From Hyphomonadaceae bacterium ML37 (GTDB taxonomy: Bacteria; Pseudomonadota; Alphaproteobacteria; Caulobacterales; Maricaulaceae): DNA of 64,000 nt. Made by a program: the position numbers and the translations under genes. The stretch lies in assembly GCA_027627685.1 (NCBI GenBank), contig CP091241.1, positions 1,923,191 through 1,987,190 of the forward strand. Direction: 5' to 3'. Each line of letters starts with the position of its first letter. Position 1 is the first letter of the stretch. This document shows, piece after piece, positions 6,579-19,203 of the stretch. Under the pieces are notes generated by a model that was not told where the DNA came from, made no database searches, and was given only the letters and a program-made list of their open reading frames with translations.

Positions 6579-7323
6579 CGGGCGCGGTCGGCGCGGTCAG
6601 GCGGTAATGAACGGCCAGCCGGTCCAGCGCCAGCCTCAGCGCCGGCGCGCCGCTACGCGACGGCCAGCCCAGCTCGCGCTCGGCTGAGCCCATGGGCGCC
6701 TCGCGCAGGACCAGCGCAACCAGCAAACGGTCCAGGCCCGGGCCCACAGCTTCCAGCGCGTCCAGCACCCGCGCCTGAGCCGCCAGCCGCCCGGCCGGCG
6801 CGTCGGAGCGGTCGCGCGGCGCGCGGCGCACCTTACCGCCGGGCTGTCCACTCCAGTCCATGGTCACACGCGTCATCAGGGCCGAGCGCTCGTAGTCCTG
6901 ACGCAGGATCGCGGCGGCGGCCAGATGCAGCGGCTCGATCAGCGCGCGCTGATCGCCGCGCGCCCGGGCATAGCGCGCCAGCGGCGAGGACGCGTCGAGA
7001 TCGGCCTGGACGGTTTGCATCCGGCCCTCAGGCCCCGTCACGGTGCGCACGCCGGTGCGCCGGTGCTGGGCCGCGAAATCGCCTCCCGCCTCATCGCGCC
7101 TTAATCGGGCCTGTCCCGCAGCGGTCAGCACCAGGCCGTGGGGGCCAGCCTCCAGCGCGCCATCAGCCTCCGCTTTGCGCGCCTCAGCATCCGCCGCAAT
7201 GGCGAGCGGGCGCCGTCTGCGGTCCGCGCCTGAGAACACGCCATAGCCGCGCCGCCCGCCCGGCAAGGGCGCCAACACCCGGCCTTGCGCGTCCAGGCGC
7301 TTGAGCCAGCTGGGGGCGCTCAT
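6547..7323 (-). CDS. DUF6456 domain-containing protein
   Basis: A 258-residue cytoplasmic protein found in Caulobacterales and related alphaproteobacteria next to a DnaA-C-like gene. The central part (VDLDASSPLARYARAR-like region, then LIEPLHLAAAAILRQDYERS) matches the family known as DUF6456. The N-terminus (MSAPSWLKRLDAQGRVLAP) is probably a small winged-helix-like segment. The ATG at 7323 overlaps the stop of the upstream gene by ATGA. A longer frame to 7395 exists, but the overlap argues for this start. A transcription or replication role is inferred only from the partner. Confidence 0.75.
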   Translation of the reverse strand: MSAPSWLKRLDAQGRVLAPLPGGRRGYGVFSGADRRRRPLAIAADAEARKAEADGALEAGPHGLVLTAAGQARLRRDEAGGDFAAQHRRTGVRTVTGPEGRMQTVQADLDASSPLARYARARGDQRALIEPLHLAAAAILRQDYERSALMTRVTMDWSGQPGGKVRRAPRDRSDAPAGRLAAQARVLDALEAVGPGLDRLLVALVLREAPMGSAERELGWPSRSGAPALRLALDRLAVHYRLTAPTAPANPFSAAEAG

Positions 7324-7670
7324 GCCGCCAGCTCGCCTCTGGCCCGGCCCGGCCCCGGCAGGCTGCGCAGACACGCCTCCAGCTCGTCCAGGCACTGGTC
7401 GAACGCCGGGTCGTCGCGCCGGTCCTCGATGCGGTGACAGGCATGGGCGGCTGTGGAGCGGTCGCGGTCGAACGCCTCGGCGGTCCGCGCCAGGCTCAAC
7501 TCAAACGCGACATGGGTGAGATAGATGGCGATCTGGCGGCCAAGCGCGGCGCGGGCGGAGCCGCGCGTGGCGCGTGTGATGTCCTCGACGGGAATGTCGA
7601 ATGTGTAGGACACCGCCTGCTGCGCCAGGCGCGCCCGCGCCAGATCAAGCGCTCGGATTTGGGACTGCAT
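7320..7670 (-). CDS. Orphan DnaA domain-IV-like helix-turn-helix protein
   Basis: A 116-residue protein resembling only the DNA-binding domain of DnaA, without the AAA+ ATPase. RQIAIYLTHVAFELSL and FDRDRSTAAHACHRIED (about residues 44-85) correspond to the DnaA domain IV signature, with DRSTAAHAC in place of the DHSTVLHA-type box-recognition motif. A GGAGG ribosome binding site precedes the ATG. It is translationally coupled to the DUF6456 gene. Whether it binds DnaA boxes or acts as an ordinary regulator is unknown. Confidence 0.82.
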   Translation of the reverse strand: MQSQIRALDLARARLAQQAVSYTFDIPVEDITRATRGSARAALGRQIAIYLTHVAFELSLARTAEAFDRDRSTAAHACHRIEDRRDDPAFDQCLDELEACLRSLPGPGRARGELAA

Positions 7671-7783
7671 GTGGCTTCCTCCGACCTCAAGCTTTCCGGT
7701 TCCGGATGACTATAAGGACGGCGGATAGAAATGAGGATAACTTTCCTATGCAGGGGCGCCGACTCGCTTGTACCGCTTAAAAT

Positions 7784-7795
7784 TCCCGCGTGGGA
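7784..7795. repeat. Short inverted repeat after the last Mrp gene
   Basis: TCCC-GCGT-GGGA is a small inverted repeat between the DnaA-C-like start and the end of the Mrp operon. Read on the minus strand it is followed by ATTTTAA, so it may be a weak terminator for the operon; alternatively it is an operator of the gene at 7320. The four-pair stem makes either call tentative. Confidence 0.3.
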
Positions 7796-7803
7796 TTACC
7801 TCA

Positions 7804-9528
7804 CTACAACGGGGAGAAGTAGGCGACGATCAGAACCGCCGCCAGCAGCACGCCGGTCCAGATCGCCATCAACCCGGACGGGAAGATGCGTGACAGCGAA
7901 CCGGCCGGGCTGAACACGTTGAACAGGCGGTTTGTCCAGCGCTTGATCACCACGCCAAGCCCGCGCTCGCTGGCGCCCGCCAGGAGAACGCCCATCGCGC
8001 CGCCCCAGCGCACCACGCCGTCGCCCACCCGGCGGTACAACCAGTCCACGTCCAGAATGGCGCGATCACCGCGCAGCGGGAACAGGTTCAGCCAGACCAT
8101 GACGGCGAACGCGAAGGCGCCCGCCAGCAGGATCTGCACCTGCCCGATGATATTGTCGGCGGTGTAGGGTTCGTAATCGATGGCGAAGGGCAACAGGCCG
8201 TAGAGCCCCTGCCAGTGACTGCCCAGATAGATGCACAGGAACGCCGCCAGCCCCATGGCGAGGAGCATGTTCAGCGGCGCTTCCTTGACCTTGTAGCCGC
8301 GGTCCTGCCCGAAGAAGGCGAAGAACGGCACTTTGAGCGCGCTGAGCTCCATCACGCCGGCGGCCGCGAAAACCAGAATGCCATAGACCAGCATGTCGCC
8401 ATGATAGGACACCGCCGACAGGACCAGCGTCTTTGTCACGAAACCGGAAAAGAGCGGCGCGCCGACCAGGGCGAGCGCGCCGATTATGGACAATGCGCCG
8501 GTGATCGGCATGGAGCGGAACAGCCCGCCCAGCTCGCTGACCTTGGCGGTGCCGGTGCGATGCATCACCGCGCCGATCACCATGAACATCAGCGCCATGT
8601 AGAACACGCCAACAAAAGCGTTGGCCGCCGCGGCGTTCAGGCCCAGCGGCGTGCCCACGCCCACGCCCACCACCATGAAGCCCAGCTGGTTGTTGAGCGC
8701 ATAGGCGAGCGTGCGCCGCAGGTCATTCTCCACGATCACGAACAGGATCGGGAACACCGCCATGATGGCGCCAATGGTGATCAGGATTTCGGTTCCGGCA
8801 AAGCCACGCGCAAGCGCGTAGATCGCGAGCTTTGTGGTGAAGGCTGAGAGCACCACTGCGCCCACGCCCGTCGCCTTGGGATACGCGTCCTGCATCCACA
8901 TGTGCAGAAGCGGGAAGGCCGCCTTGATGCCAAACGCGATCAGCAATACGAGCCCCGCCGGATCGTCCAAGCCGATGGCGTCAAATGTCCACGAACCGGT
9001 CTGGCTGGCCCACAATGCGGCGCCGCCCAGCAGGAGCACGCCCGACAAGACCTGGATCGCCAGATAGCGCAGGCCCGCGCGCTGGGATTCCGGCGTGCCG
9101 GCCGCGAAGATCAGCGGCGCGGAGAACAGCGCCGTCAGCTCCCAGAACACGAACAGGGTCAGGAGATCGCCCGCGAACACCGCACCCACGGCCGCACCGG
9201 CATAGATCAGCGCCGAGCCGTCAGATATCCGGCTGCGCTCGTGCAGGGCGTAGATGCCGTTGAGGAAAGCAGCCAGCAGAAACACCAGCGCCCAGATGCG
9301 CGACAACCCGTCATAGCGGAACGTCTCCAGCGTCATAGGCCCGAGCTCGATGACGGCGTAGACGCCCGGCTCACGCGTCGCGAACCAGGCCGCCAGGCCC
9401 AGCAGCGGCGCAGCGATCATCACAACCTTGCGCGCATGGGACCAAGGCAGGGCCAGCGCCAGCACGCCGCCCAGGATCAGGAACAGGGCCGGGTTCACGC
9501 CATGGAGGGCGCCGAACAGATCAGTCAT
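7804..9528 (-). CDS. Mrp-type antiporter NuoL/M/N-like subunit (third D-like subunit)
   Basis: A 574-residue polytopic membrane protein of the proton-antiporter family (PF00361) shared by complex I and Mrp. Channel residues expected for the family are present: E130 in FVFWELTALFS, K202 in FGIKAAFPLLHMW and K233 in AFTTKLAIYAL. A long C-terminal extension (LFPLRGDRAILDVDWLYRRVGD onward) resembles the extra helices of MbhH/MrpD-like proteins. The ATG at 9528 overlaps the end of the 101-residue gene by 8 bases. It is the last gene of the mnh run. A standard seven-gene Mrp has two such subunits; this is a third. Confidence 0.85.
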   Translation of the reverse strand: MTDLFGALHGVNPALFLILGGVLALALPWSHARKVVMIAAPLLGLAAWFATREPGVYAVIELGPMTLETFRYDGLSRIWALVFLLAAFLNGIYALHERSRISDGSALIYAGAAVGAVFAGDLLTLFVFWELTALFSAPLIFAAGTPESQRAGLRYLAIQVLSGVLLLGGAALWASQTGSWTFDAIGLDDPAGLVLLIAFGIKAAFPLLHMWMQDAYPKATGVGAVVLSAFTTKLAIYALARGFAGTEILITIGAIMAVFPILFVIVENDLRRTLAYALNNQLGFMVVGVGVGTPLGLNAAAANAFVGVFYMALMFMVIGAVMHRTGTAKVSELGGLFRSMPITGALSIIGALALVGAPLFSGFVTKTLVLSAVSYHGDMLVYGILVFAAAGVMELSALKVPFFAFFGQDRGYKVKEAPLNMLLAMGLAAFLCIYLGSHWQGLYGLLPFAIDYEPYTADNIIGQVQILLAGAFAFAVMVWLNLFPLRGDRAILDVDWLYRRVGDGVVRWGGAMGVLLAGASERGLGVVIKRWTNRLFNVFSPAGSLSRIFPSGLMAIWTGVLLAAVLIVAYFSPL

Positions 9529-9826
9529 CACGCCCCTCCCCGCTGACATCGCCTGCGGCACGCTCGTAATAATCGCCGCGGCGGCCCAGCACCCAGCGCA
9601 CGCCCCAACCCGCCAGGATCGCCGCCAGCGTCGCCGGGATCAGCACCAGCTCGTAGGTTCCGGTGACGGTGCGGTACTTGGCGAAACCGTCCTCGGTCAG
9701 AAAATATTCCAGACCAAACCCGATCAGATTGAGCGCACCCAGCGCCAGCACCAGGGCGAGGCCGATAAGGCCTCCCGAAACGCGCGGCAGCCGTTTGGCG
9801 CTCTTGTTGGTCTTCGGCGCGTTCAT
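9521..9826 (-). CDS. Small two-helix membrane protein of the Mrp operon, unknown
   Basis: A 101-residue protein with a basic start (MNAPKTNKSAKRLPR), two hydrophobic segments (about 17-40, LIGLALVLALGALNLIGFGL, and about 58-78, LVLIPATLAAILAGWGV) and a charged acidic tail. No known Mrp subunit family is recognised. It lies between two NuoL/M-like genes, overlapping the upstream one by 4 bases and the downstream one by 8, so it is clearly part of the operon. It may be an accessory or assembly subunit of the antiporter; that is inferred from position only. Confidence 0.75.
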   Translation of the reverse strand: MNAPKTNKSAKRLPRVSGGLIGLALVLALGALNLIGFGLEYFLTEDGFAKYRTVTGTYELVLIPATLAAILAGWGVRWVLGRRGDYYERAAGDVSGEGRDD

Positions 9827-11292
9827 GGCGTCATCTCCGTCATGAAGACCGGCGTCAGATAGTCGATCAGCGGCCCGATGGCGAAGAACAGCACCACGGT
9901 TCCGATGGCGGTGATCAGCGGCGCCACCCAGACCAGGGCGGGCGGCAGACCGGGCGTCATCGGACTGGTCTCGGGCGCCGGCTTCAGAAAGCCGCGGATC
10001 GCGATGGGCAGGAGATAGCCGATATTCAGAAGGGTGGAGGCGATCAGCACCGCGATCAGCCAGGGCTGACCGGCGCCGGCCGCGCCTTCCATCAGGAAGA
10101 TTTTGGGCCAGACCCCGCCAAAGGGCGGCATGCCGATAATCGACAGGGCTCCAATCAGGAACACGGCAAATGTGACCGGCATGAGCCTGCCCAGCCCGTT
10201 GAGCTGGGAGATGTCGGTCTTCTTGGTGCCGGTATAGATCGAGCCCGCGGCCATGAAGAGCGTGATCTTGCCATAGGCGTGCATGATGATCTGCAAGGCC
10301 GCGCCCATCAGCGCCAGCGGGCTCGCCAGCATGGCGCCGAGCGTCACGTAGGACAGCTGGCTGACCGTGGAATAGGCGAGCCTGGCCTTGAGATTATCCT
10401 TGGTCATCGCCATCACCGACGCGATCACGATGGACGCGCCCGCGATCCAGGCCAGCACATTCGCGGCCGGCAGCGTCTCGATATATTGCGGGCCGAAAAC
10501 ATAGACCGACACTTTCAGGATGGAGAACACGCCCGCCTTCACCACCGCCACCGCATGCAGCAGCGCCGAGACCGGCGTGGGCGCCACCATGGCGTTGGGC
10601 AGCCAGGGATGGGTCGGCATCAGCGCCGCCTTGCCGATCCCGAAGGCGAACAGCACCAGAATGATCGATCCGGCGACCGGCCCGACCCCGCCCATAATGC
10701 CGCCGGCTGTGAAGTCCGTCGTGCCGGTCAGGGCATAGGTGGCGAAAATCGCCGGCAGGAACAGGCCGATGGAGGTCGCCAGCAGAATGCCCAGATAGAT
10801 CGAGGCGCCCTTGCGCGCCTTGGCGTCGCCCTTGTGCGCCACCAGCGGATAGGTCGCGAGACTGAGCGCCTCGTAGAAGAAGAACATCGTGATCAGATTG
10901 CCCGACAGGGCGATGCCCATGGCCGCGGCGATGGAGATTGTGAAGCAGAAGTAGAACCGGGTCTGGTCCTTCTCCTTGTTCCCGCGCATATAGCCGATGG
11001 AGTAGAGCGAGTTCACGATCCAAAGCCCGCTGGCCACCATGGCGAACACGGCGCCCAGCGGCTCCAGCGTGAACTTCAGCGACAGGCCCGGCGCGATCTC
11101 CAGCAATGTCAGCGCCGGGCGGTCGCCGGCCGCTTCCACCAGATAGGCGACCACAATGGCCAGCGCGACAGCGGTGATCAGGGTCGCCGCTTCACGCAGG
11201 TTCGGCCAGCGGCCCAGCAACAGCACGCCGGCGCCGCCGACCAGCGGCAGGATCAGGGCCAGAGCCAGCGCGAGTTCAGGGGTCCAGGTCAC
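9823..11292 (-). CDS. Mrp antiporter subunit, NuoL/MrpA N-terminal-like
   Basis: A 489-residue PF00361 proton-antiporter subunit. Of the three in this operon it looks most like NuoL/MrpA: it has YSIGYMRG (about 97) and the HPWLPNAMVAPTPVSALLHA block (H228, H246) followed by K252 (VVKAG), together with E141 and K221 in the channel. It probably stands in for the N-terminal half of MrpA, while the DUF4040 gene supplies the C-terminal half. The start is a GTG in a GTGA overlap with the upstream stop. Confidence 0.87.
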   Translation of the reverse strand: MTWTPELALALALILPLVGGAGVLLLGRWPNLREAATLITAVALAIVVAYLVEAAGDRPALTLLEIAPGLSLKFTLEPLGAVFAMVASGLWIVNSLYSIGYMRGNKEKDQTRFYFCFTISIAAAMGIALSGNLITMFFFYEALSLATYPLVAHKGDAKARKGASIYLGILLATSIGLFLPAIFATYALTGTTDFTAGGIMGGVGPVAGSIILVLFAFGIGKAALMPTHPWLPNAMVAPTPVSALLHAVAVVKAGVFSILKVSVYVFGPQYIETLPAANVLAWIAGASIVIASVMAMTKDNLKARLAYSTVSQLSYVTLGAMLASPLALMGAALQIIMHAYGKITLFMAAGSIYTGTKKTDISQLNGLGRLMPVTFAVFLIGALSIIGMPPFGGVWPKIFLMEGAAGAGQPWLIAVLIASTLLNIGYLLPIAIRGFLKPAPETSPMTPGLPPALVWVAPLITAIGTVVLFFAIGPLIDYLTPVFMTEMTP

Positions 11293-12812
11293 GGGTTCAC
11301 CCCCGCCGCAATGGCGGCGTCAGCGGCGGCGCGCGCCATGTCCACAATAGGTTCAGCCCAGACGCCGAACACCAGATTGGCGCCAGCCAGCACGGCCAGC
11401 GGCACGGCGATAGCCAGCGGGACGCGCTTGGGCGATGTCTTGCGCGCTTCGTCGGGCGGCGTCACCCAGATCGCGACCAGGATGCGGTAGACGTAGAACA
11501 CCGCAATCACCGAAGAGATCAGGATAGCGGCCACGGCCCACCACCAGCCCGCGTCCAGCGCGGCTGCGATGAGATAGAATTTGGAGATGAAGCCCACGGT
11601 GAACGGCACGCCCACGAGCGACAGCGCGCCGATGGTGAAGGCCGCCGAGGTCATGGGCATGACCTGGCCCAGCCCCTTGAAATCCTCGATCCGCCGGATG
11701 CCGTAGGACAGGGCGAATGCGCCCAGCGCCATGAACAGCGCGCCCTTCATCATGGCGTGATTGATCAGGTGCAGCATGCCCGCCGACAGGCCCAGCGAAG
11801 TCGCCATGCCCAGGCCCAGCATCATGTAACCCACCTGCGCCACGGACGAGTAGGCGAACAGGCGGCGCACATTGTTCTGGAACAGGGCCTGGGTGGAGGC
11901 CACGAGCATGCCCGCAATGGCCAGCGGCGTGATCACCCAGATCATGGCGTTGGTCACGAAGCCGGTGCCGATGGAGAACACGTCATAGCTGAAGCGGATG
12001 ATGACGTAGAACGCCACTTTGGTGGCGGTGGTGGCCAGGAATGTGGTCACGAAATTGGGCGCGTACGCGTAGGCGTTGGGCAGCCACTGATGCAGCGGGA
12101 ACAATGCGGCTTTCAGCCCGATTCCGACCAGGATGAAGGCGAAGCCTACTTCCACCGCGCGATTGCCGTTCAGGTCGGCGATGGCCCGGCCCATATCGGC
12201 CATGTTGAGCGTGCCGGTGGTCATATAGATGAAGCCGACGCCGATCACGAAGAAGGTCGCGCCGATCGTGCCCATCACCAGATAGTTGAACGAGGCGGTG
12301 AGCGCCTGGCGGTCCTTGCTCCAGCCCATGGCGATAATGGCGTAAGTCGCGATGGAGGAAATCTCGAGGAAGACGAAGAGGTTGAACGCGTCCCCCGTGC
12401 TCGCCACGCCCGACAGGCCGGCGAAACAGATCAGGAAGGCTGCATAGAACAGCGAGCGCTTCTGGCGCGAGATCTCGTCGGCCACGCTGGGGCCGGCGAA
12501 CAGCACGGTGAGAAAGCCTGTCGAGCCCAACAGGAGCAGAAGCGCGGCGTTGAGCGCGTCAATCCGGAACTCGATGCCCAGAGGCGGCGCCCAGCCGCCC
12601 ATCGCGTAGGACAGGACGGCGCCCTCGGCGCGCGTCGCCAGGAATATCTCGACGGCCAGCACCAGGGCTGATCCGACGCCCAGCACGGTCATGCCCCACG
12701 CCACGCGCCCGCTGGTGATCATGGCGGCGGGGGCCGACAGGATCAGCGGGATCATGACCAGCAAGGCTGGCGCATGGGCCGCGATTGCGGCCGGGAGAAA
12801 CTGCGGCTCCAT
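11289..12812 (-). CDS. mnhD: Na+/H+ antiporter subunit D (MrpD/MnhD)
   Basis: A 507-residue polytopic subunit of the Mrp antiporter. Channel residues are E150 (FVFLEISSIATY), K234 (GLKAALFPLHQWLPNAY), K265 (TTATKVAFYV) and K411 (VGFISKFYL), the set found in MrpD/NuoM/NuoN. It follows mnhC directly (five bases), the usual order. Together with the other subunits it exchanges cytoplasmic sodium or potassium for external protons and supports pH and salt tolerance. Confidence 0.88.
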   Translation of the reverse strand: MEPQFLPAAIAAHAPALLVMIPLILSAPAAMITSGRVAWGMTVLGVGSALVLAVEIFLATRAEGAVLSYAMGGWAPPLGIEFRIDALNAALLLLLGSTGFLTVLFAGPSVADEISRQKRSLFYAAFLICFAGLSGVASTGDAFNLFVFLEISSIATYAIIAMGWSKDRQALTASFNYLVMGTIGATFFVIGVGFIYMTTGTLNMADMGRAIADLNGNRAVEVGFAFILVGIGLKAALFPLHQWLPNAYAYAPNFVTTFLATTATKVAFYVIIRFSYDVFSIGTGFVTNAMIWVITPLAIAGMLVASTQALFQNNVRRLFAYSSVAQVGYMMLGLGMATSLGLSAGMLHLINHAMMKGALFMALGAFALSYGIRRIEDFKGLGQVMPMTSAAFTIGALSLVGVPFTVGFISKFYLIAAALDAGWWWAVAAILISSVIAVFYVYRILVAIWVTPPDEARKTSPKRVPLAIAVPLAVLAGANLVFGVWAEPIVDMARAAADAAIAAGVNP

Positions 12813-12817
12813 CGCCC

Positions 12818-13222
12818 CTACACGCCTCTCTTCAACTCGTCATCGTGGTCAATCTCGGACAATTCATCGTCCTCGATGGTGCCGTAGATCTCGCGGATGC
12901 GCACCACGAGCGCCAGCCCCATGGCCAGCGTCGCCACGCCGACGACGATGGCGGTCAGGATCAGCACGTGGGGCAGCGGGTTGGCGTAGACCGCATCGTC
13001 CGGAATCGTGCCCGCAGACAGATCGGAATAGTTGAATATCGCAGGCGCGCCGCCTGTCACCTTGGCGGTGGCGATGTAGAGCAGGAATACCGAGGTCTGG
13101 AAAATCGACAGGCCCACCATGCGCTTGACCAGATTGCCCGTGGCGATGACGGCGTAGAGGCCGACCATCATCAGCACCAGGATCACCGCGAAGGTGAAGC
13201 GATCGCCTAGGATCTCAAGCAT
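12818..13222 (-). CDS. mnhC: Na+/H+ antiporter subunit C (MrpC/MnhC, NuoK-like)
   Basis: A 134-residue NuoK-like subunit with three membrane segments: about 10-28 (FAVILVLMMVGLYAVI), 35-58 (VGLSIFQTSVFLLYIA) and 85-110 (HVLILTAIVVGVATLAMGLAL). The tail is strongly acidic (EDDELSEIDHDDELKRG). The ATG at 13222 lies four bases after the mnhB stop; longer upstream frames run into mnhB and were not used. Confidence 0.9.
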   Translation of the reverse strand: MLEILGDRFTFAVILVLMMVGLYAVIATGNLVKRMVGLSIFQTSVFLLYIATAKVTGGAPAIFNYSDLSAGTIPDDAVYANPLPHVLILTAIVVGVATLAMGLALVVRIREIYGTIEDDELSEIDHDDELKRGV

Positions 13223-13226
13223 CGCC

Positions 13227-13667
13227 TCAGTCCTCCGCCGTGTCATCGCTGCGCTCGCGCCCGGCGAACGCATAGAAAATCGCAATGATCACGGCCGTCA
13301 CGCTGGTCAGCACGCCAAATTCCACCGCCACGATGCCGATATGCTGGCCCAGATAGGTCCGATTCGGGTCGAGCACGGTGTAATCGAGAAAATTGCCGCC
13401 CATGAACAACGAGACAAAGCCCACGCCGGCGAAGATGAGCGCACCCAGCGCCATGCCGATCCGCGCCCACCAGGGCGGCACCGCTTTGCGCGCGGCGCCC
13501 ATGCCGAAGATCAGTGCATACAAGATCACGCCTACGCCCAGCACCACGCCCGCCGAAAACCCGCCGCCGGGCGAGTACTCGCCATGGAAGTGGACGTAGA
13601 AGCCGAACAGGAAGATCAGCGGGATCAGCAGCTTGGAAACGACGCGGAGGACGATATACGGGTTCAT
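13227..13667 (-). CDS. mnhB: Na+/H+ antiporter subunit B (MrpB/MnhB)
   Basis: A 146-residue membrane subunit with the MnhB signature YVHFHGEYSPGGGFSAGVVLG-type block at about residues 24-45 and the TYLGQHIGIVAVEFGV segment near 100. The ATG at 13667 shares one base with the upstream stop (TGATG) and has GGAGG seven bases before it; a TTG one codon earlier is less well spaced. Confidence 0.93.
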   Translation of the reverse strand: MNPYIVLRVVSKLLIPLIFLFGFYVHFHGEYSPGGGFSAGVVLGVGVILYALIFGMGAARKAVPPWWARIGMALGALIFAGVGFVSLFMGGNFLDYTVLDPNRTYLGQHIGIVAVEFGVLTSVTAVIIAIFYAFAGRERSDDTAED

Positions 13668-14230
13668 CAATTGTCCTCCCCGCGCTTGCCGCGTCCGGAT
13701 AGGTTGAGCAGGAGCGCCACGCCCACACCCGCGGCGAACACCACAAAAACCTCGCCCATGGTGTCAAAACCGCGATAGCTGGCCAGCACCGCCGTCACCA
13801 CGTTGGGAATATTGATCTCTTCGGGCGTGCGCGCGATGTAGTCCATGCCCACGCCGGAATTGGCCGGGCTGTCGGCGGCGCCATAGACCGGCAGATCGCC
13901 CAGCGCGTAGAACACCGCCGCGCCCGCCGCCGTCATCACCACCAGCGCCGCCCAGTGGCGGAAGGCCGTGGTGGGTTTGGCCTCGCTCGAGGTGAGCAGC
14001 ATGGCGGCCAGCAGCAATACCGTGGAAATGCCTGCGCCCACCGCCGCTTCTGTGATCGCCACGTCCGCCGCGCTGAGCGATACAAACCAGGCGGCAGCGA
14101 TCAGCGAGTACACGCCGGTCAGCATGACCACGGCGAACAGGTTCTGCAGGCGGATCACGGCCAGGCCGATGACCAGCAGCATCACCATGAACAGATAATC
14201 GAAAAGCTGGGTGATCTCCGCGCCGTTCAT
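13667..14230 (-). CDS. DUF4040/MbhD-like antiporter subunit (MrpA C-terminal equivalent)
   Basis: A 187-residue membrane protein. Residues about 15-100 match the MbhD/DUF4040 domain (GVYSLIAAAWFVSLSAADVAITEAAVGAG), which in bacillus-type Mrp forms part of the long MrpA C-terminus. The second half, with DTMGEVFVVFAAGVGVALLL, matches the MbhE-like end. Here these parts are a separate gene, so MrpA is split. It overlaps mnhG by ATGA and mnhB by one base. Confidence 0.85.
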   Translation of the reverse strand: MNGAEITQLFDYLFMVMLLVIGLAVIRLQNLFAVVMLTGVYSLIAAAWFVSLSAADVAITEAAVGAGISTVLLLAAMLLTSSEAKPTTAFRHWAALVVMTAAGAAVFYALGDLPVYGAADSPANSGVGMDYIARTPEEINIPNVVTAVLASYRGFDTMGEVFVVFAAGVGVALLLNLSGRGKRGEDN

Positions 14231-14583
14231 TGCGCTTCCTCCCGCTTTTCGTCAGAGCGCCAGCGGCGCAGCAGCGGCTTGAGGCCGGAGCGGTAGGCGG
14301 CATTGGCCACGGCATGGGTCGAGGTCGGGCTGGTCAGGAACACGATGAGCCCGAGGATCGCCAGCTTCACGCTCACCAATGTGAAGCCCGACTGGATGAT
14401 CAGCCCCATGATGACCAGCTCGGCGCCCAGCGTATCGGTGACGCCGGCGGCATGCATGCGCGTGTAGAAATCAGGCAGGCGGATCACACCGATGGCCCCC
14501 GCCAGCACGAGGCCGGCGCCGGTCAGCATGAAGGCGGCCGAAGCCAGCGCCTGGGCGACGCCGAGCCAGAACATCCAGTCCAT
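14227..14583 (-). CDS. mnhG: Na+/H+ antiporter subunit G (MrpG/MnhG)
   Basis: A 118-residue subunit with three membrane segments and the family hallmark VIRLPDFYTRMHAAGVTDTLG at about residues 33-52, followed by FLTSPTSTHAVANAAY. The ATG at 14583 is preceded by a GGGAGG with seven-base spacing and overlaps the mnhF stop by one base. Confidence 0.93.
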   Translation of the reverse strand: MDWMFWLGVAQALASAAFMLTGAGLVLAGAIGVIRLPDFYTRMHAAGVTDTLGAELVIMGLIIQSGFTLVSVKLAILGLIVFLTSPTSTHAVANAAYRSGLKPLLRRWRSDEKREEAQ

Positions 14584-14909
14584 CACTCGCCCTCCCCGTC
14601 CTTGCGCGCCGCACGCGGTTCTGAATCGAACAGCGCCACATCCAGCGAGCGGTAGCTAAAGAATTTCAGGATCGCGATGGTCGCCACGAAATTGATCAGG
14701 GCATAGAGCAGCGCAATGTCGAGACCGTCGGCGCGCCCGACCGCCAGCGAGAACACGGCCAGGAACAGGACAATCTTTGTGCCGAACGCGTTCACGGCCA
14801 GCACGCGGTCATAGAGCGTCGGGCCGATAAACAGACGCACCAGCATGAGCGCCATGGCGGCGACGATCATCAGTGCGACGATGATGTCCACAAAGCCGGT
14901 AAAGTTCAT
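14583..14909 (-). CDS. mnhF: Na+/H+ antiporter subunit F (MrpF/MnhF)
   Basis: A 108-residue three-helix subunit. RLFIGPTLYDRVLAVNAFGTK (about 26-46) is the conserved core of MnhF. The ATG shares one base with the mnhE stop (TGATG), consistent with tight coupling. The C-terminus (SEPRAARKDGEGE) is charged. Confidence 0.93.
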   Translation of the reverse strand: MNFTGFVDIIVALMIVAAMALMLVRLFIGPTLYDRVLAVNAFGTKIVLFLAVFSLAVGRADGLDIALLYALINFVATIAILKFFSYRSLDVALFDSEPRAARKDGEGE

Positions 14910-15400
14910 CAGCCGGTCTCCCCGGTGGCGGTCTTCACCCGGCGCTCGAACGCGCGGAAGCCTTCCTGGCTGGCGAACGATTCGTCCAGCGCATGCAGGA
15001 TGAACCCGTTCTCCTGGATCTCCATGGTCACCGTGCCCGGCGTCAGAGTGTAGGAGTTGGCCAGTGTCGCGCGCGCTACGTCGTCGCGCAGCGTCACCGG
15101 CGTGCGCGTCACGACCGGCTTGATCTCGATCACCGGCGACAGGACGATGCGCAGCACGGCGATGTTAGCGGTCACGATCTCACCCGCCAGCCAGCCCCAA
15201 TAGCTGTAATAGCGCACCCGCAAATAGGGCGTGGACTCACCATCGAGCAGGCCCATGCGCACGGTCATGAAGACCGTCACGACAATCGAGAAGATCGCCA
15301 GCGACAGGATGGGCTGCTTGAGCCCGTATCCGGACAGCAGCGCCCACATCGCGGCGAGCACGATGGTCAGGGTCACGCCATAGAGCCATTTGCGGGTCAA
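14909..15400 (-). CDS. mnhE: Na+/H+ antiporter subunit E (MrpE/MnhE)
   Basis: A 163-residue subunit. The two early membrane helices are followed by a conserved part including SYWGWLAGEIVTANIAVLRIVLSP and TLANSYTLTPGTVTMEI, typical of MnhE. The start is taken as TTG at 15400 (LTRKWLYG) because GGAGG lies eight bases upstream; an in-frame ATG at 15466 would add an atypical polar extension. It is the first mnh gene, 130 bases downstream of sbtB on the same strand. Confidence 0.88.
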   Translation of the reverse strand: MTRKWLYGVTLTIVLAAMWALLSGYGLKQPILSLAIFSIVVTVFMTVRMGLLDGESTPYLRVRYYSYWGWLAGEIVTANIAVLRIVLSPVIEIKPVVTRTPVTLRDDVARATLANSYTLTPGTVTMEIQENGFILHALDESFASQEGFRAFERRVKTATGETG

Positions 15401-15530
15401 AGCCCGGTCCTCCCTGGAAAGGTGACAGCTGAGATCGGCGAACGAATTGGCACGGTTTCTAGGCAAGGCGCGGCGCGAATTCCAGCGAAACCGGTGCGTT
15501 GCACGCCAGTTTCTTCATATGGGCGCGCGA

Positions 15531-15839
15531 TTAGAACCGCTCGCCGCGCACCACTTCGACATCATAGCCGTAGATGATTCCCGGATAGCGCTCGAAGAAC
15601 ACAGCCGCCTTGTCGAACACGCGCTCGGCAGTCTCGGCTGTGGTGACGGCGTGAACGATCTTCATCTCCACGGCCTCGAACACCCCGTCCCTGCTCCAGT
15701 CACCCGCAATGCCCGAGCCCTCGCGCCCGTCAATGACAGTGAAGCCCGACACGCCGCAGCTGCGGATCAGATCGACCAGCCGGCGCAGATGCGCGGCCTC
15801 CACGATGGCGATGACTTTCTTTCGGATCGATCGGGCCAT
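15531..15839 (-). CDS. sbtB: PII-like bicarbonate-transport regulator (SbtB-like)
   Basis: A 102-residue member of the PII superfamily. The core (VDLIRSCGVSGFTVIDG, then FEAVEMKIVHAV and FFERYPGIIYGYDVEVVRG) lines up with cyanobacterial SbtB, including the GIIY strand before the end. The protein stops at GERF and lacks the C-terminal CGxxGC redox loop of cyanobacterial SbtB. The ATG at 15839 lies one base after the sbtA stop, so it is coupled to the transporter it presumably controls by binding adenine nucleotides. The nucleotide preference cannot be read from sequence. Confidence 0.85.
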   Translation of the reverse strand: MARSIRKKVIAIVEAAHLRRLVDLIRSCGVSGFTVIDGREGSGIAGDWSRDGVFEAVEMKIVHAVTTAETAERVFDKAAVFFERYPGIIYGYDVEVVRGERF

Positions 15840-15840
15840 G

Positions 15841-16821
15841 TCAGCCTCCCAGAACTGCGCGCGCCACACTGGTATAGAGCGGTATGCCGATGGTCAGATT
15901 GAACGGGAAGGTGATCGCCAGCGACAAGGTGAGATACACGGACGGGTCCGCCTCCGGCAGGGCGATGCGCATGGCGGCGGGCACTGCGATATAGCTCGCC
16001 GATCCTGACAGGATCATCAGCGCCGCCGCATCGCCCGCGCTCATGCCGATCAGCCACGCCACGGGCAGCGCCGCCGCGGCGCCGATCAGCGGCATCACCA
16101 CCCCGAACGCTATCCCGGACACGCCCAGCTTTTTTGCTCCGCCCAGCCTGCGCGAGGCGACCAGCCCCATGTCCAGAAGGAACAGGCACAGCAGGCCCTG
16201 GAACAATCCGTTCACGAACAGATCGAGGCGCGCCATGCCCGCCGGTCCGGACGCCCAGCCGATAAGGAAGGCGCCGATGAGCAGCACCACCGATCCGTTC
16301 AGCAGCACCTCTCGCAGGAGCTCCGGGCGCGCTTCCGGGTCCGGCCCCTTCGCGGCCCGGCCCGCCAGCCACAGACCGGTCAGGATCGCCGGCGTCTCCA
16401 TGATCGCCAGCACCGCCACCATATGGCCCGACCAGATCAGGCCTGACGCGGTGAGGAACTCCGAACCCGCCACAAAGGTGACCACCGAGATTGAGCCATA
16501 GTGCGCGGCGCTCGCCGCGGCCGTGGCCCGGTCCACCTTGGTGAAGGCGCGCAAGAGCGCAAACGCGACCAGCGGCAGGGAGAAGCTGAGCACAACACCG
16601 GCCAGCGCCGCGAGGGCGAGGTCCATCGACAGGCCCACCTCGGCCACGGCCGCGCCACCCTTGAAACCGATGGCGAGCATCAGATAGAGCGCCAGCCCCT
16701 TGGCGATGGCCTGGGGAATGGTGAGATCGGACCGGGCGACGCCGGCGAAAATCCCCAGTGCGAAGAACAGCACGGCGGGCGAGGTGAGATTGGCCAGGGC
16801 CAGAGCAATTGCGTCGGTCAT
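15841..16821 (-). CDS. sbtA: Sodium-dependent bicarbonate transporter SbtA
   Basis: A 326-residue membrane protein with about ten helices, of the SbtA (DUF897) family that brings in bicarbonate with sodium. Recognisable blocks are LMLAIGFKGG (about 50), SAAHYGSISVVTF (about 113), AIMETPAILTG and LSGSASYIAVPAAMR (about 275) followed by LSLAITFPFNLTIG. The internal repeat expected for the fold is visible as two halves joined by a charged linker (RAAKGPDPEARPE, about 160). It is followed by the PII-like gene and then the Mrp operon on the same strand. Confidence 0.9.
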   Translation of the reverse strand: MTDAIALALANLTSPAVLFFALGIFAGVARSDLTIPQAIAKGLALYLMLAIGFKGGAAVAEVGLSMDLALAALAGVVLSFSLPLVAFALLRAFTKVDRATAAASAAHYGSISVVTFVAGSEFLTASGLIWSGHMVAVLAIMETPAILTGLWLAGRAAKGPDPEARPELLREVLLNGSVVLLIGAFLIGWASGPAGMARLDLFVNGLFQGLLCLFLLDMGLVASRRLGGAKKLGVSGIAFGVVMPLIGAAAALPVAWLIGMSAGDAAALMILSGSASYIAVPAAMRIALPEADPSVYLTLSLAITFPFNLTIGIPLYTSVARAVLGG

Positions 16822-16870
16822 AAAACGCGTCGTTAGCGGCAGGACCTGCCCCTGACAAGCGATTCCCGCG

Positions 16871-17980
16871 TCAGCTGGCGCCGGTGCGTCCGATGACCCA
16901 GTTCCAGTAGCGCAAGACCGTCTGCGCCTTGTCGACGGAAAGCGTGTCGAACACGCGCACAGCCTGCTGGATGCGCAGCGGCGTATCGGTGCGCCCGCCC
17001 AGCTCGACCAGCATCACCAGATGCTCGCGCGACAGGCCTGTGGCCTTGGCCAGCACGGCCAGCGGCTCGCCGCCGAAATCATCCAGCATGCGATTGGTCA
17101 GGTCCTGACCGATGGCCGACAGCGTGGCCATCTCGGCGCGCGCCTCCAACCTCAATCCCTCGCGCGCGGCATGCTCGATCAGGCCTTCCAGCGATTGCCA
17201 GGGCGACAGCTCGGCGGCGCGGCGGTCACGCTGGCGCCGGTCGATATAGACCAGTGCGGCGTCCACAGCCGGGTCACGCTCTTCCTGGCGCGCGGCCAGC
17301 GGAAACACGTCGCTGGCGGCTTCTTGCAGAATGGCGCGCGAGGCGGCGAAGCGGTCCAGAATCATGCGGCGCTGATCATGACCACACGCCCAGAACAGGG
17401 TGAGCGCCTGGGCCGGGCGAAGCTCGGCGCGCTTGATGAGCAAAAGCGCCAGCGTCTCGTTTTCAGCCGCTTCGCGCACCAGAAACTCGACCGTCTCCAG
17501 CGCCAGATGCGCCCCGGCATTGCGCAGGATCGCCGAGATGACGTCCACGTCGCCGCTGGCGCACAGGGCGGCGGCGACCACTTCGGACACGCGCTCTCGC
17601 CGGGCCAGCGCCAGACGGTGTCGGCGGCTGGTCTTGCGCGCGATCTCCATCATGTCGAAATCGGTCAGCGCCCGGGCGCGCGCCAGCAAGGGGTCGGCGA
17701 TCTCGAATTCATCCAGCGCCAGGCGGCGCACGAGGCCGGCGGGCGCTTCGGCCTGATCGGCCAGGCGCGCAGCGACCTTCGCGCGCAAGCCGGCATCAGC
17801 GGTGGCCAGCATGGTCTCCAGCACATCGGCCACCATCCAGCGCTCTTGCGGCGCCACGCGGCTGGCGGGCAGGCACACAATGTCAGCCAGGCGCCGCGTC
17901 AACAGCGTGCGCGCCCGGCCCGCTGGCGGAGCGGGCGGCGGCGCGGCCGGCTCGGCGACGGATCGAAAGTCTTCAGCCAT
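16871..17980 (-). CDS. DUF2336 domain-containing protein
   Basis: A 369-residue soluble, helical protein of the alphaproteobacterial DUF2336 family (function unknown, HEAT-like helices). Typical features are MVADVLETMLATADAGLRAKVA near residue 50 and repeated LARRERVSEVVAAALCASGD-type helical pairs. The Pro/Ala-rich N-terminus (PAAPPPAPPAGRA) is probably disordered. The ATG at 17980 is used; a GTG at 17986 is also in frame. It is 48 bases upstream of sbtA and could share a transcript, but a functional link is not evident. Confidence 0.85.
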   Translation of the reverse strand: MAEDFRSVAEPAAPPPAPPAGRARTLLTRRLADIVCLPASRVAPQERWMVADVLETMLATADAGLRAKVAARLADQAEAPAGLVRRLALDEFEIADPLLARARALTDFDMMEIARKTSRRHRLALARRERVSEVVAAALCASGDVDVISAILRNAGAHLALETVEFLVREAAENETLALLLIKRAELRPAQALTLFWACGHDQRRMILDRFAASRAILQEAASDVFPLAARQEERDPAVDAALVYIDRRQRDRRAAELSPWQSLEGLIEHAAREGLRLEARAEMATLSAIGQDLTNRMLDDFGGEPLAVLAKATGLSREHLVMLVELGGRTDTPLRIQQAVRVFDTLSVDKAQTVLRYWNWVIGRTGAS

Positions 17981-18066
17981 GCGCACAAATCCGTGACGGC
18001 AGAATGCGTCAGGGCACTATCGGCGCGGCGCGTTAAGGAATGGTCTCCGCAACCAGGCTGGAGACG

Positions 18067-18438
18067 TTAGCTGGATGGCGGCGCCGAGCGCGGATTGGTG
18101 ACGCGCACGCCCGCGCCCTGCGGGAGCCCCAGATCGTCACGCGTCCACACCAGCTCCACCCCCTGGGGCAGCAGCGCGCGGCAGTTATCGGCATGGATGC
18201 GCGTCAGCGTGACGTCGAAATTCCAGCCCTGCCCGCCGGCGCCGTACACATCGGCGACAAAGCTGTCGCGCGTGGTGCAGCCATTGGAGGCCACGCGCAC
18301 CACCAGATCGCCCGCCCGGTCCACGCGCCAGTCATAGACCGGTTCGGCGCTGTATCCGGCCGGGCTGTAGGGCGCAGTCTGGCAGGCTGTCGCGAGCAGG
18401 GCGAACGCACCGGCGCAGGCGGTCTTCAGGCGGATCAT
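18067..18438 (-). CDS. Small lipoprotein, unknown
   Basis: A 123-residue exported protein with a lipoprotein signal: MIRLKTACAGAFALLATAC, with the lipobox LATAC and lipidation at Cys19. The mature part is short, with VYDWRVDRAGDLVVRVASNGC and a central Cys pair (Cys near 54 and 86) that could form a disulfide. A good AGGAG precedes the ATG. No family is recognised. Confidence 0.75.
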   Translation of the reverse strand: MIRLKTACAGAFALLATACQTAPYSPAGYSAEPVYDWRVDRAGDLVVRVASNGCTTRDSFVADVYGAGGQGWNFDVTLTRIHADNCRALLPQGVELVWTRDDLGLPQGAGVRVTNPRSAPPSS

Positions 18439-18510
18439 GGCGCGTCTCCTGTCGGCAGCTGATCGCGAGCTTACCTGACCGTGAGGCGAGGCGACAGCAC
18501 CAAGGCCGCA

Positions 18511-18544
18511 AGAAAAAGACCCGCCAGCGTGCGCCAGCGGGTCT
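18511..18544 (-). terminator. Intrinsic terminator of rpsD
   Basis: On the minus strand, AGACCCGC and GCGGGTCT form an eight-pair stem around a 12-base loop, followed directly by TTTTTCTT. It lies about 40 bases downstream of the rpsD stop, a textbook Rho-independent terminator. Confidence 0.85.
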
Positions 18545-18585
18545 CGTTCGGTCGTGCAGGCGCAGCCGAAGCCGCGCCGAAGACC

Positions 18586-19203
18586 TTAGGAGGAGTAGAA
18601 TTCCACCACGAGGTTGGGCTCCATCTTCACCGGATAGGGCACCTCGTTGAAATCGGGGATGCGGGCGTAAGTCGCCTTCATGCCCTTGCCTTCAAGCTCG
18701 ATATACTCGGGCACGTCACGCTCGGGGCTGCCCAGCGCTTCGAGCACCAGGGCCATGTTGCGCGACTTCTCGCGCACTTCGATGACGTCGCCCGGCTTGC
18801 ACTGGTAGGACGCGATGTTGACGCGCTGACCGTTCACCTTCACGTGGCCGTGATTGACGAACTGGCGCGCGGCGAACACGGTCGGCACGAACTTGGCGCG
18901 ATAGACGATCGCATCCAGACGGCTTTCCAGCAGGCCGATCAGGTTCTCGGCGGTGTTGCCCTTGCGGCGCATCGCCTCGGTATAGATCTTGAGAAACTGC
19001 TTCTCGGTGATGTTGCCGTAATAGCCTTTCAGCTTCTGCTTGGCGCGCAGCTGAAGGCCGAAATCGGACAGCTTGCCGGCGCGGCGCTGGCCGTGCTGGC
19101 CCGGGCCGTAGGCGCGGTTGTTCACCGGGGACTTGGCGCGGCCCCAGATGTTTTCGCCCATACGGCGGTCGATCTTGTATTTCTGCGAATGACGCTTTGA
19201 CAT
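18586..19203 (-). CDS. rpsD: 30S ribosomal protein S4
   Basis: A 205-residue primary 16S rRNA-binding protein that nucleates the small-subunit body. It begins [21 protein letters not shown], the alphaproteobacterial form without the zinc-binding cysteines. The S4 RNA-binding domain (about 94-155) contains [15 protein letters not shown] and [21 protein letters not shown]. It is monocistronic, as is usual in this class, with its own promoter (19333-19361) and terminator (18511-18544). Confidence 0.98.

Follow-up and report, generated by a model that had tools for sequence, protein, structure and literature searches.

An SbtA-like/SbtB-like gene pair directly upstream of an Mrp operon in Hyphomonadaceae bacterium ML37: a possible sodium-bicarbonate module

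The window analysed here, a stretch of 64,000 nucleotides from contig CP091241.1 of Hyphomonadaceae bacterium ML37 (a closed genome of 3.04 Mb), encodes a PF05982 transporter (SbtA1) and a PII-like partner protein (SbtB1) directly upstream of an Mrp-type sodium/proton antiporter operon. This locus is a real variant, conserved locally, of a partnership that is already known; the transporter had been over-called as SbtA by an earlier note on this DNA, and the two gene groups probably have separate promoters. There is, in our view, about an even chance that it constitutes a Na+-bicarbonate module of SbtA-like/SbtB-like proteins and Mrp, the sbtAB pair having been gained once upstream of an Mrp operon with its own promoter. 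A sodium-bicarbonate module is plausible by analogy with cyanobacteria; for SbtA1 and Mrp, we infer the substrate, the coupling to Na+, the gating by SbtB and the joint regulation.

The gene order on the minus strand is: DUF2336, sbtA, sbtB, mnhE, mnhF, mnhG, an MbhD/MbhE-like gene, mnhB, mnhC, two genes for antiporter-like subunits (D1 and D2), a two-helix open reading frame (ORF) and a third antiporter-like gene (D3) (Table 1). The common direction of sbtA, sbtB and the Mrp genes, from 16821 to 7804, was confirmed as the earlier note had described it, together with the tight coupling of sbtA to sbtB (a single base separates the two genes, the ATG beginning 2 bases past the last stop base) and the gap of 130 bases between sbtB and the likely start of mnhE (a TTG preceded by AGGGAGG). 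In the Mrp part, every gene overlaps its neighbour or lies at most 6 bases from it. This order is not due to chance, because it recurs in 12 other genomes and because purifying selection acts on sbtA1 and sbtB1 (dN/dS of 0.05-0.17 against four other genomes).

The identification of the transporter as SbtA holds for its fold and its partner, but not for its subfamily. Indeed, the AlphaFold model of SbtA1 (pLDDT 85.6) shares its fold with the structures of Synechocystis SbtA Slr1512 (7cye, 7cyf, 7egl and 8zor; TM 0.85-0.92, the value of 0.92 being reached with 8zor), and the next-best structures after the SbtA entries are bile acid symporter homologues, with a TM of about 0.6. SbtA1 thus has the fold and the PF05982 family match of SbtA but, by kinship, is not an orthologue of Slr1512: the identity is 24%, Tyr140 and Ser327 are replaced (Y140L, S327A), the stretch between the two halves is about 40 residues shorter, and the phmmer E-value is 7.6e-18, compared with 2.1e-118 for the other copy in the genome. 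On the SbtA tree (73 rows, the 79 named loci being thinned by dropping every other one), the canonical and SbtA-like types are separated with an SH-aLRT of 100, and SbtA1 groups with alphaproteobacterial SbtA-like genes having the same pocket pattern. It shares 53-61% identity with the 79 named SbtA-like sequences outside the genus, which belong to the best 80 of 586 confirmed loci (hereafter the named loci). SbtA1 is therefore an SbtA-like protein and not an orthologue of the proven cyanobacterial SbtA.

A PII-fold gene (PF00543) lies directly 3' of sbtA1, as in the Slr1512/SbtB pair, and the best seven matches of its product in the Protein Data Bank (PDB) are PII-like chains, including SbtB slr1513 (E 1e-7 to 2e-6). 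SbtB1 ends in ...VEVVRGERF and differs from the Synechocystis partner by the absence of the C-terminal CGPxGC motif, which is conserved in some SbtB only (PMC8352866). The genome encodes two PF05982 genes, one in the window and one at C1:180102 (SbtA2, locus L002). Since the latter is the orthologue of Slr1512 and is followed by a PII gene, the window sbtA was rejected as the canonical SbtA of the genome. At L002 (415-2790), a LysR gene lies divergently before the canonical pair; among NCBIfam families it comes closest to NhaR, below the cut-off (109 bits, compared with 219 bits), and it is perhaps sodium-responsive.

An mnhE gene was found in 50 of the 61 genomes compared, and sbtA lies directly before it in 13, the window's own genome included. 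These are 11 of the 15 genomes of the genus, plus G026 and G028. Conservation of the neighbourhood in related genomes, on which the earlier note had made its proposal depend, was thus found in the genus and in two further genera. PF05982 is present in 31/61 genomes: in 13 it is linked to Mrp, in three (G002, G003 and G005) it is of the SbtA2 type only, and in 15 an SbtA-like gene is located elsewhere. Classified by score, five members of the genus have both SbtA types, six have sbtA1 only, three have sbtA2 only (the members counted for the module as having an sbtA2-type gene and no sbtA1) and G004 (1.7 Mb) has neither. Among the named loci, L073 is the only one with Mrp, and its sequence is that of G001, from the same genus. 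Two samples drawn from larger groups were also examined. In the class sample, PF05982 was found in 51/241 genomes; those other than the window's own genome, 50 in number, were scanned for mnhE, which is present in 25 and lies less than 10 kb from sbtA in G199 only. In the phylum sample, PF05982 was found in 47/299 genomes, two of which fall short of the family cut-off. Six of the 47 were already covered by the preceding scans; among the remaining 41 (G196 being a repeat), mnhE is present in 22, and in none does it lie less than 10 kb from sbtA. In the literature searched, which mostly excluded subscription papers, no description of sbtA adjoining mrp was found.

At the G199 locus (L167, 3742-12089), which belongs to another alphaproteobacterial family, the SbtA-like/SbtB-like pair is divergent from an Mrp operon of another, A-to-G type; this arrangement is possibly an independent pairing. 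At the locus of G028 (L047, 1020-19801), a second, different Mrp operon lies on the opposite strand about 4.6 kb beyond DUF2336. One of the two SbtA family matches of the Spiribacter record of L119 (G071:C16:188-1105, L160) has an in-frame TAG, reflecting either a pseudogene or a sequencing error.

The adjacency of sbtAB and mrp is most readily explained by a single gain and a single loss. On a tree built from six Mrp subunits of 28 loci (L049, L063, L064 and L067 were left out, as were L053-L055 and L060, which are of the other type), starred branches oblige the sbtAB label to change twice. The gene order is retained in 13 of the 16 descendants of this gain. The 13 Mrp-linked SbtA sequences group as a single clade (SH-aLRT 84, not starred), and its sister rows, L136 and L144, have neither a carbonic anhydrase (CA) nor an Mrp neighbour in the available DNA. 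DUF2336 precedes sbtA in 11/13 sbtAB-mrp loci and lies at most 1 kb before mnhE in 13/16 loci outside the genus that have this Mrp type and no sbtAB; in total, 24 of the 29 loci counted have it ahead of the operon, be this mrp or sbtAB-mrp. It is no longer upstream in G010 and G011. In G010, sbtA is preceded by an MBL-fold exonuclease-like gene (named by eye), and the same gene lies directly before mnhE in G002, G003 and G005, which represent the empty site.

Comparison of the relatives also revealed two promoter-like blocks, both patterns being fixed after this comparison, in related and hence not independent species. In the gap between sbtB and mnhE, the pattern GGTTT-N2-CTGGAA-N17/18-CTAGAA is present in 12/13 loci, and the remaining one, that of G028, lacks GGTTT only. 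A related block, GGTTTTGCTGGAAA followed by CTAA with the same 17-base spacing, stands before mnhE in G002, G003 and G005, which belong to the same genus and have no sbtAB; the block therefore belongs to mrp and not to sbtAB. These three species had also been used to argue that the block is older than sbtAB, an argument that was withdrawn since the tree makes them descendants of the gain. Its age rests on locus L058 (G023), which alone lies outside the gain and has the first half (GGTTT-N2-CTGGAA) without CTAGAA. The pattern was found in none of the other tested loci without sbtAB. The genome contains one exact copy and one copy with three mismatches, compared with three weak hits in the reversed control, and a regulon is not shown by one exact copy and a ratio of weak hits of 1 to 3. 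Before sbtA, the pattern CTTG-N19-NTAN[C/G] is present in 12/13 loci (it is absent in L042), at a distance from the sbtA match of 37-42 nt in ten of them and 78-82 nt in two; it is expected in 0-1.4% per sequence according to mononucleotide shuffles, a figure that applies to a pattern chosen after viewing the sequences. We take the -10-like halves of both blocks to resemble the Caulobacter sigma-73 element; a scan of 15380-17100 for the sigma-70 consensus gave 0 matches. Judging from these conserved blocks, and from the related one in the three species without sbtAB, the Mrp operon probably has its own promoter and sbtA shows another, which weakens the co-transcription of sbtB and mnhE put forward in the earlier note. 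A terminator or a structured RNA in the gap was set aside: no terminator was found there (the only terminator-like match is inside sbtA, and shuffles give 1.0), the fold z-score of the gap is +0.51, and an Rfam search of 7000-18600 gave no match. Read-through from sbtB to mnhE is possible because no terminator was found.

An inorganic-carbon role of the SbtA-like subfamily is suggested mainly by the frequency of carbonic anhydrase neighbours. A beta-carbonic anhydrase lies within 2.5 kb in 36/80 named loci (34/69 of those in which each flank extends for 2.5 kb or more), a count that may be low because one divergent query was used. In the 15 relatives having an SbtA-like gene that is not at mrp, an alpha- or beta-CA lies within 0.5 kb of sbtA in nine (eight beta; the one of G022 is alpha), compared with 0/13 for the Mrp-linked sbtA. 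An SbtB-like gene is present within 400 bp in 76/80 named loci. The window pair thus resembles the SbtA-like subfamily of Alphaproteobacteria in having the usual SbtB-like partner and the same pocket changes, and differs from it in that those loci often adjoin a carbonic anhydrase, whereas a downstream Mrp operon is found, among the loci seen, in the group of the window only. In the genome of strain ML37, one beta-carbonic anhydrase and no alpha was found. The statement that there are no CO2-fixing genes was borne out for the RuBisCO large chain, with 0 matches in the whole genome (the search did not extend to other fixation pathways or to carboxysome shell genes). In five of the 15 genus genomes (G002, G003, G004, G005 and G010), neither an alpha- nor a beta-carbonic anhydrase was found (the search did not cover the gamma and iota types).

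According to the explanation that we favour, an SbtA-like/SbtB-like cassette would have entered the lineage a single time, in the last ancestor shared by the genus with two further genera of the family. It would have landed immediately before an Mrp operon that was already there and that keeps its own promoter, and one branch would later have lost it. Mrp would spend the proton gradient to expel Na+, the SbtA-like protein would draw on the Na+ gradient for the uptake of an anion (HCO3- being the most likely one), and the PII-type SbtB-like protein would plug the transporter in response to a small ligand. In the absence of RuBisCO, the bicarbonate would supply carboxylases of anaplerosis and biosynthesis and help to balance pH. 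Joint regulation of sbtAB and mrp may exist, the order having been retained, but with two promoter-like blocks and with possible read-through.

The idea that Mrp powers SbtA is already known from Synechocystis. Indeed, the CcmR regulon of Synechocystis unites sbtA/sbtB and an Mrp-like mnh operon (PMC3401165), and Mrp was tentatively proposed in a review to power HCO3- uptake by SbtA in this organism (PMC4390856). This CcmR/NdhR regulon, whose mnh operon is slr2006-slr2013, resembles the window in combining SbtA-SbtB with an Mrp-type complex having more than one antiporter-like subunit (ndhD5 and ndhD6), but there the genes are in separate clusters under one repressor, in an autotroph and with a canonical SbtA, whereas in the window sbtAB adjoins mrp, in a genome where no RuBisCO was found, and the transporter is of the SbtA-like type. 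In Nostoc, bicarbonate uptake systems and mrp are induced jointly at CO2 step-down, and bicA shares its operon with a gene for a Na+/H+ antiporter (PMC7699953, PMC4915528). In Nostoc/Anabaena PCC 7120, a Na+/bicarbonate symporter gene is likewise joined to an antiporter gene (bicA operon all1303-all1304), but the symporter is BicA, of the SulP family, the antiporter is a different one, and sbtAB and mrp (all1837-all1843) are apart according to their locus tags. Bicarbonate supply in a non-autotroph also has a precedent, in MpsAB (PMC6689103).

Several observations weigh against this explanation, and those on the transporter itself concern its substrate. In SbtA, HCO3- was docked at Ser114, Tyr140, Ser324 and Ser327, and in the Synechocystis protein Ala at any of these four residues leaves about 10-40% of transport (Liu et al. 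2021, PMC8352866). SbtA1 has S, L, S and A at these positions, two of the four side chains being absent. Among 107 distinct SbtA-like sequences (13 Mrp-linked, 15 from relatives and 79 from the named loci), Tyr140 is replaced by A, L, M, V or T and Ser327 by Ala in all 107, while all four residues are retained in 4/4 canonical-type sequences. When an 'SbtA-like' protein from Labrenzia alexandrii was assayed in Escherichia coli, the result was negative (PMC4275256); four Roseibium/Labrenzia genomes (L. alexandrii not among them) have one PF05982 gene each, belonging to the SbtA-like subfamily, which probably includes the protein of that study. SbtA-like proteins of Nostoc and Microcystis, with 24% identity, which may or may not belong to the subfamily of SbtA1, are thought unable to replace SbtA (PMC11890772). 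In addition, according to structure titles, the related fold carries bile acids and pantoate, and a true SbtA is present elsewhere in the genome. SbtA1 could consequently move another small anion with Na+, Mrp serving that transport or general Na+ homeostasis. We nevertheless regard this as quite unlikely: carbonic anhydrase neighbours are frequent, a PII-like partner is the rule among the named loci, Ser114, Ser322 and Ser324 are retained in 107/107 SbtA-like sequences, and BicA, whose transport is called proven by the authors, was likewise negative in the same E. coli system (PMC4275256). On the side of the explanation that we favour, two Sbt proteins of Thiomicrospira pelophila (Pseudomonadota), of either the SbtA or the SbtA-like type, rescue E. 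coli lacking CA (PMC12628692).

The separate promoter-like blocks for sbtA and mrp also weigh against a joint module, as does the rarity of the pairing outside the family (one divergent adjacency among 90 further PF05982 genomes). Both would fit a cassette that landed beside an independently expressed Mrp operon, the two being mere neighbours, both useful and each on its own promoter; the single gain, and the loss of sbtAB that left mrp in place, fit this as well. We find this possible though doubtful, since the order was held in 13/16 descendants although G010 and G011 have no DUF2336 upstream, and since the Na+ logic of SbtA and Mrp matches and has a regulated precedent in cyanobacteria. At the other extreme, sbtAB and the three-antiporter Mrp of this clade, which takes the place that a carbonic anhydrase has in many relatives, could form a dedicated Na+-bicarbonate cycle, in which SbtB would control the symporter (perhaps also the pump) and which would feed carboxylases at low CO2 and high pH and partly replace carbonic anhydrase. 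This is unlikely in our opinion; the partial replacement is suggested by G010, where sbtAB-mrp is present and no match to an alpha- or beta-carbonic anhydrase was found.

Most work on bicarbonate transport concerns autotrophs, and the presence of SbtA-like/SbtB-like pairs across many Alphaproteobacteria, beside carbonic anhydrase in many genomes and beside a sodium pump in one clade, points to an active supply in heterotrophs. The pocket differences allow a direct test of the substrate of SbtA-like proteins: if it is bicarbonate, the pocket rules of SbtA need revision, and if it is not, members of this subfamily are wrongly annotated as 'bicarbonate transporter'.

Table 1. Features of the sbtAB-mrp locus (positions in the window)
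Feature	Position	Strand	Basis
DUF2336 gene	16871..17986	-	PF10098, 158 bits
Promoter-like element before sbtA, CTTG-N19-NTAN[C/G]	16832..16859	-	Comparison of relatives
sbtA1, SbtA-like transporter, 326 aa	15841..16821	-	PF05982, 370 bits
sbtB1, PII-like SbtB-like protein, 102 aa	15531..15839	-	PF00543, 44 bits
Promoter-like element before mrp operon, GGTTT-N2-CTGGAA-N17-CTAGAA	15457..15492	-	Comparison of relatives
mnhE (MrpE)	14909..15400	-	PF01899, 95 bits; longest ORF starts at 15466
mnhF (MrpF)	14583..14909	-	PF04066
mnhG (MrpG)	14227..14586	-	PF03334
MbhD/MbhE-like, C-terminal part of split MrpA	13667..14230	-	PF13244 and PF20501; NF009159 above cut-off
mnhB (MrpB)	13227..13670	-	PF04039; NF009162 above cut-off
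mnhC (MrpC)	12818..13222	-	PF00420; ATG at 13222
Antiporter-like subunit D1	11289..12812	-	PF00361; best PDB match 6u8y_H, E 9e-77
Antiporter-like subunit D2	9823..11292	-	PF00361 and PF00662; best PDB match 6hum_F, E 3e-40
Two-helix membrane ORF, 101 aa	9521..9826	-	No Pfam or NCBIfam family at 1e-3
Antiporter-like subunit D3	7804..9561	-	PF00361; NF009310 above cut-off; best PDB match 6u8y_X, E 5e-28

Regarding the Mrp operon itself, subunits B, C, D, E, F and G and the A-type C-terminal domain are all encoded. A full-length MrpA fusion of antiporter-like and MbhD/E-type domains is not present; these are separate genes, and there are three PF00361 genes. Split MrpA forms are known in Mrp-type complexes. 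The operon is similar to the Mrp antiporters 6z16, 7d3u and 7qru and to the related Pyrococcus complexes 6u8y and 6cfw (MBS and MBH) in having E, F, G, B, C and antiporter-like D subunits, and differs from them by the split MrpA, the three antiporter-like subunits and the additional two-helix ORF. For the antiporter-like proteins, a role in DAB/DAC-type vectorial CO2 hydration was considered only; no PF10070 partner was found among the Pfam matches of the cluster (the genome was not searched for it).

Nine genes match Mrp/NDH families, one fewer than the ten Mrp-type genes of the earlier note, the tenth being the two-helix ORF, for which further searches gave sub-threshold matches at 0.02 or worse. 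It has a positional counterpart of 98-179 aa in the D2-D3 gap of 24/25 Mrp loci (window included), often showing, by eye, HPxAxPFLWL...AVLAGWPLR...RPExYY, and its dN/dS is 0.14-0.38. This ORF is a candidate for an unnamed subunit of this Mrp type.

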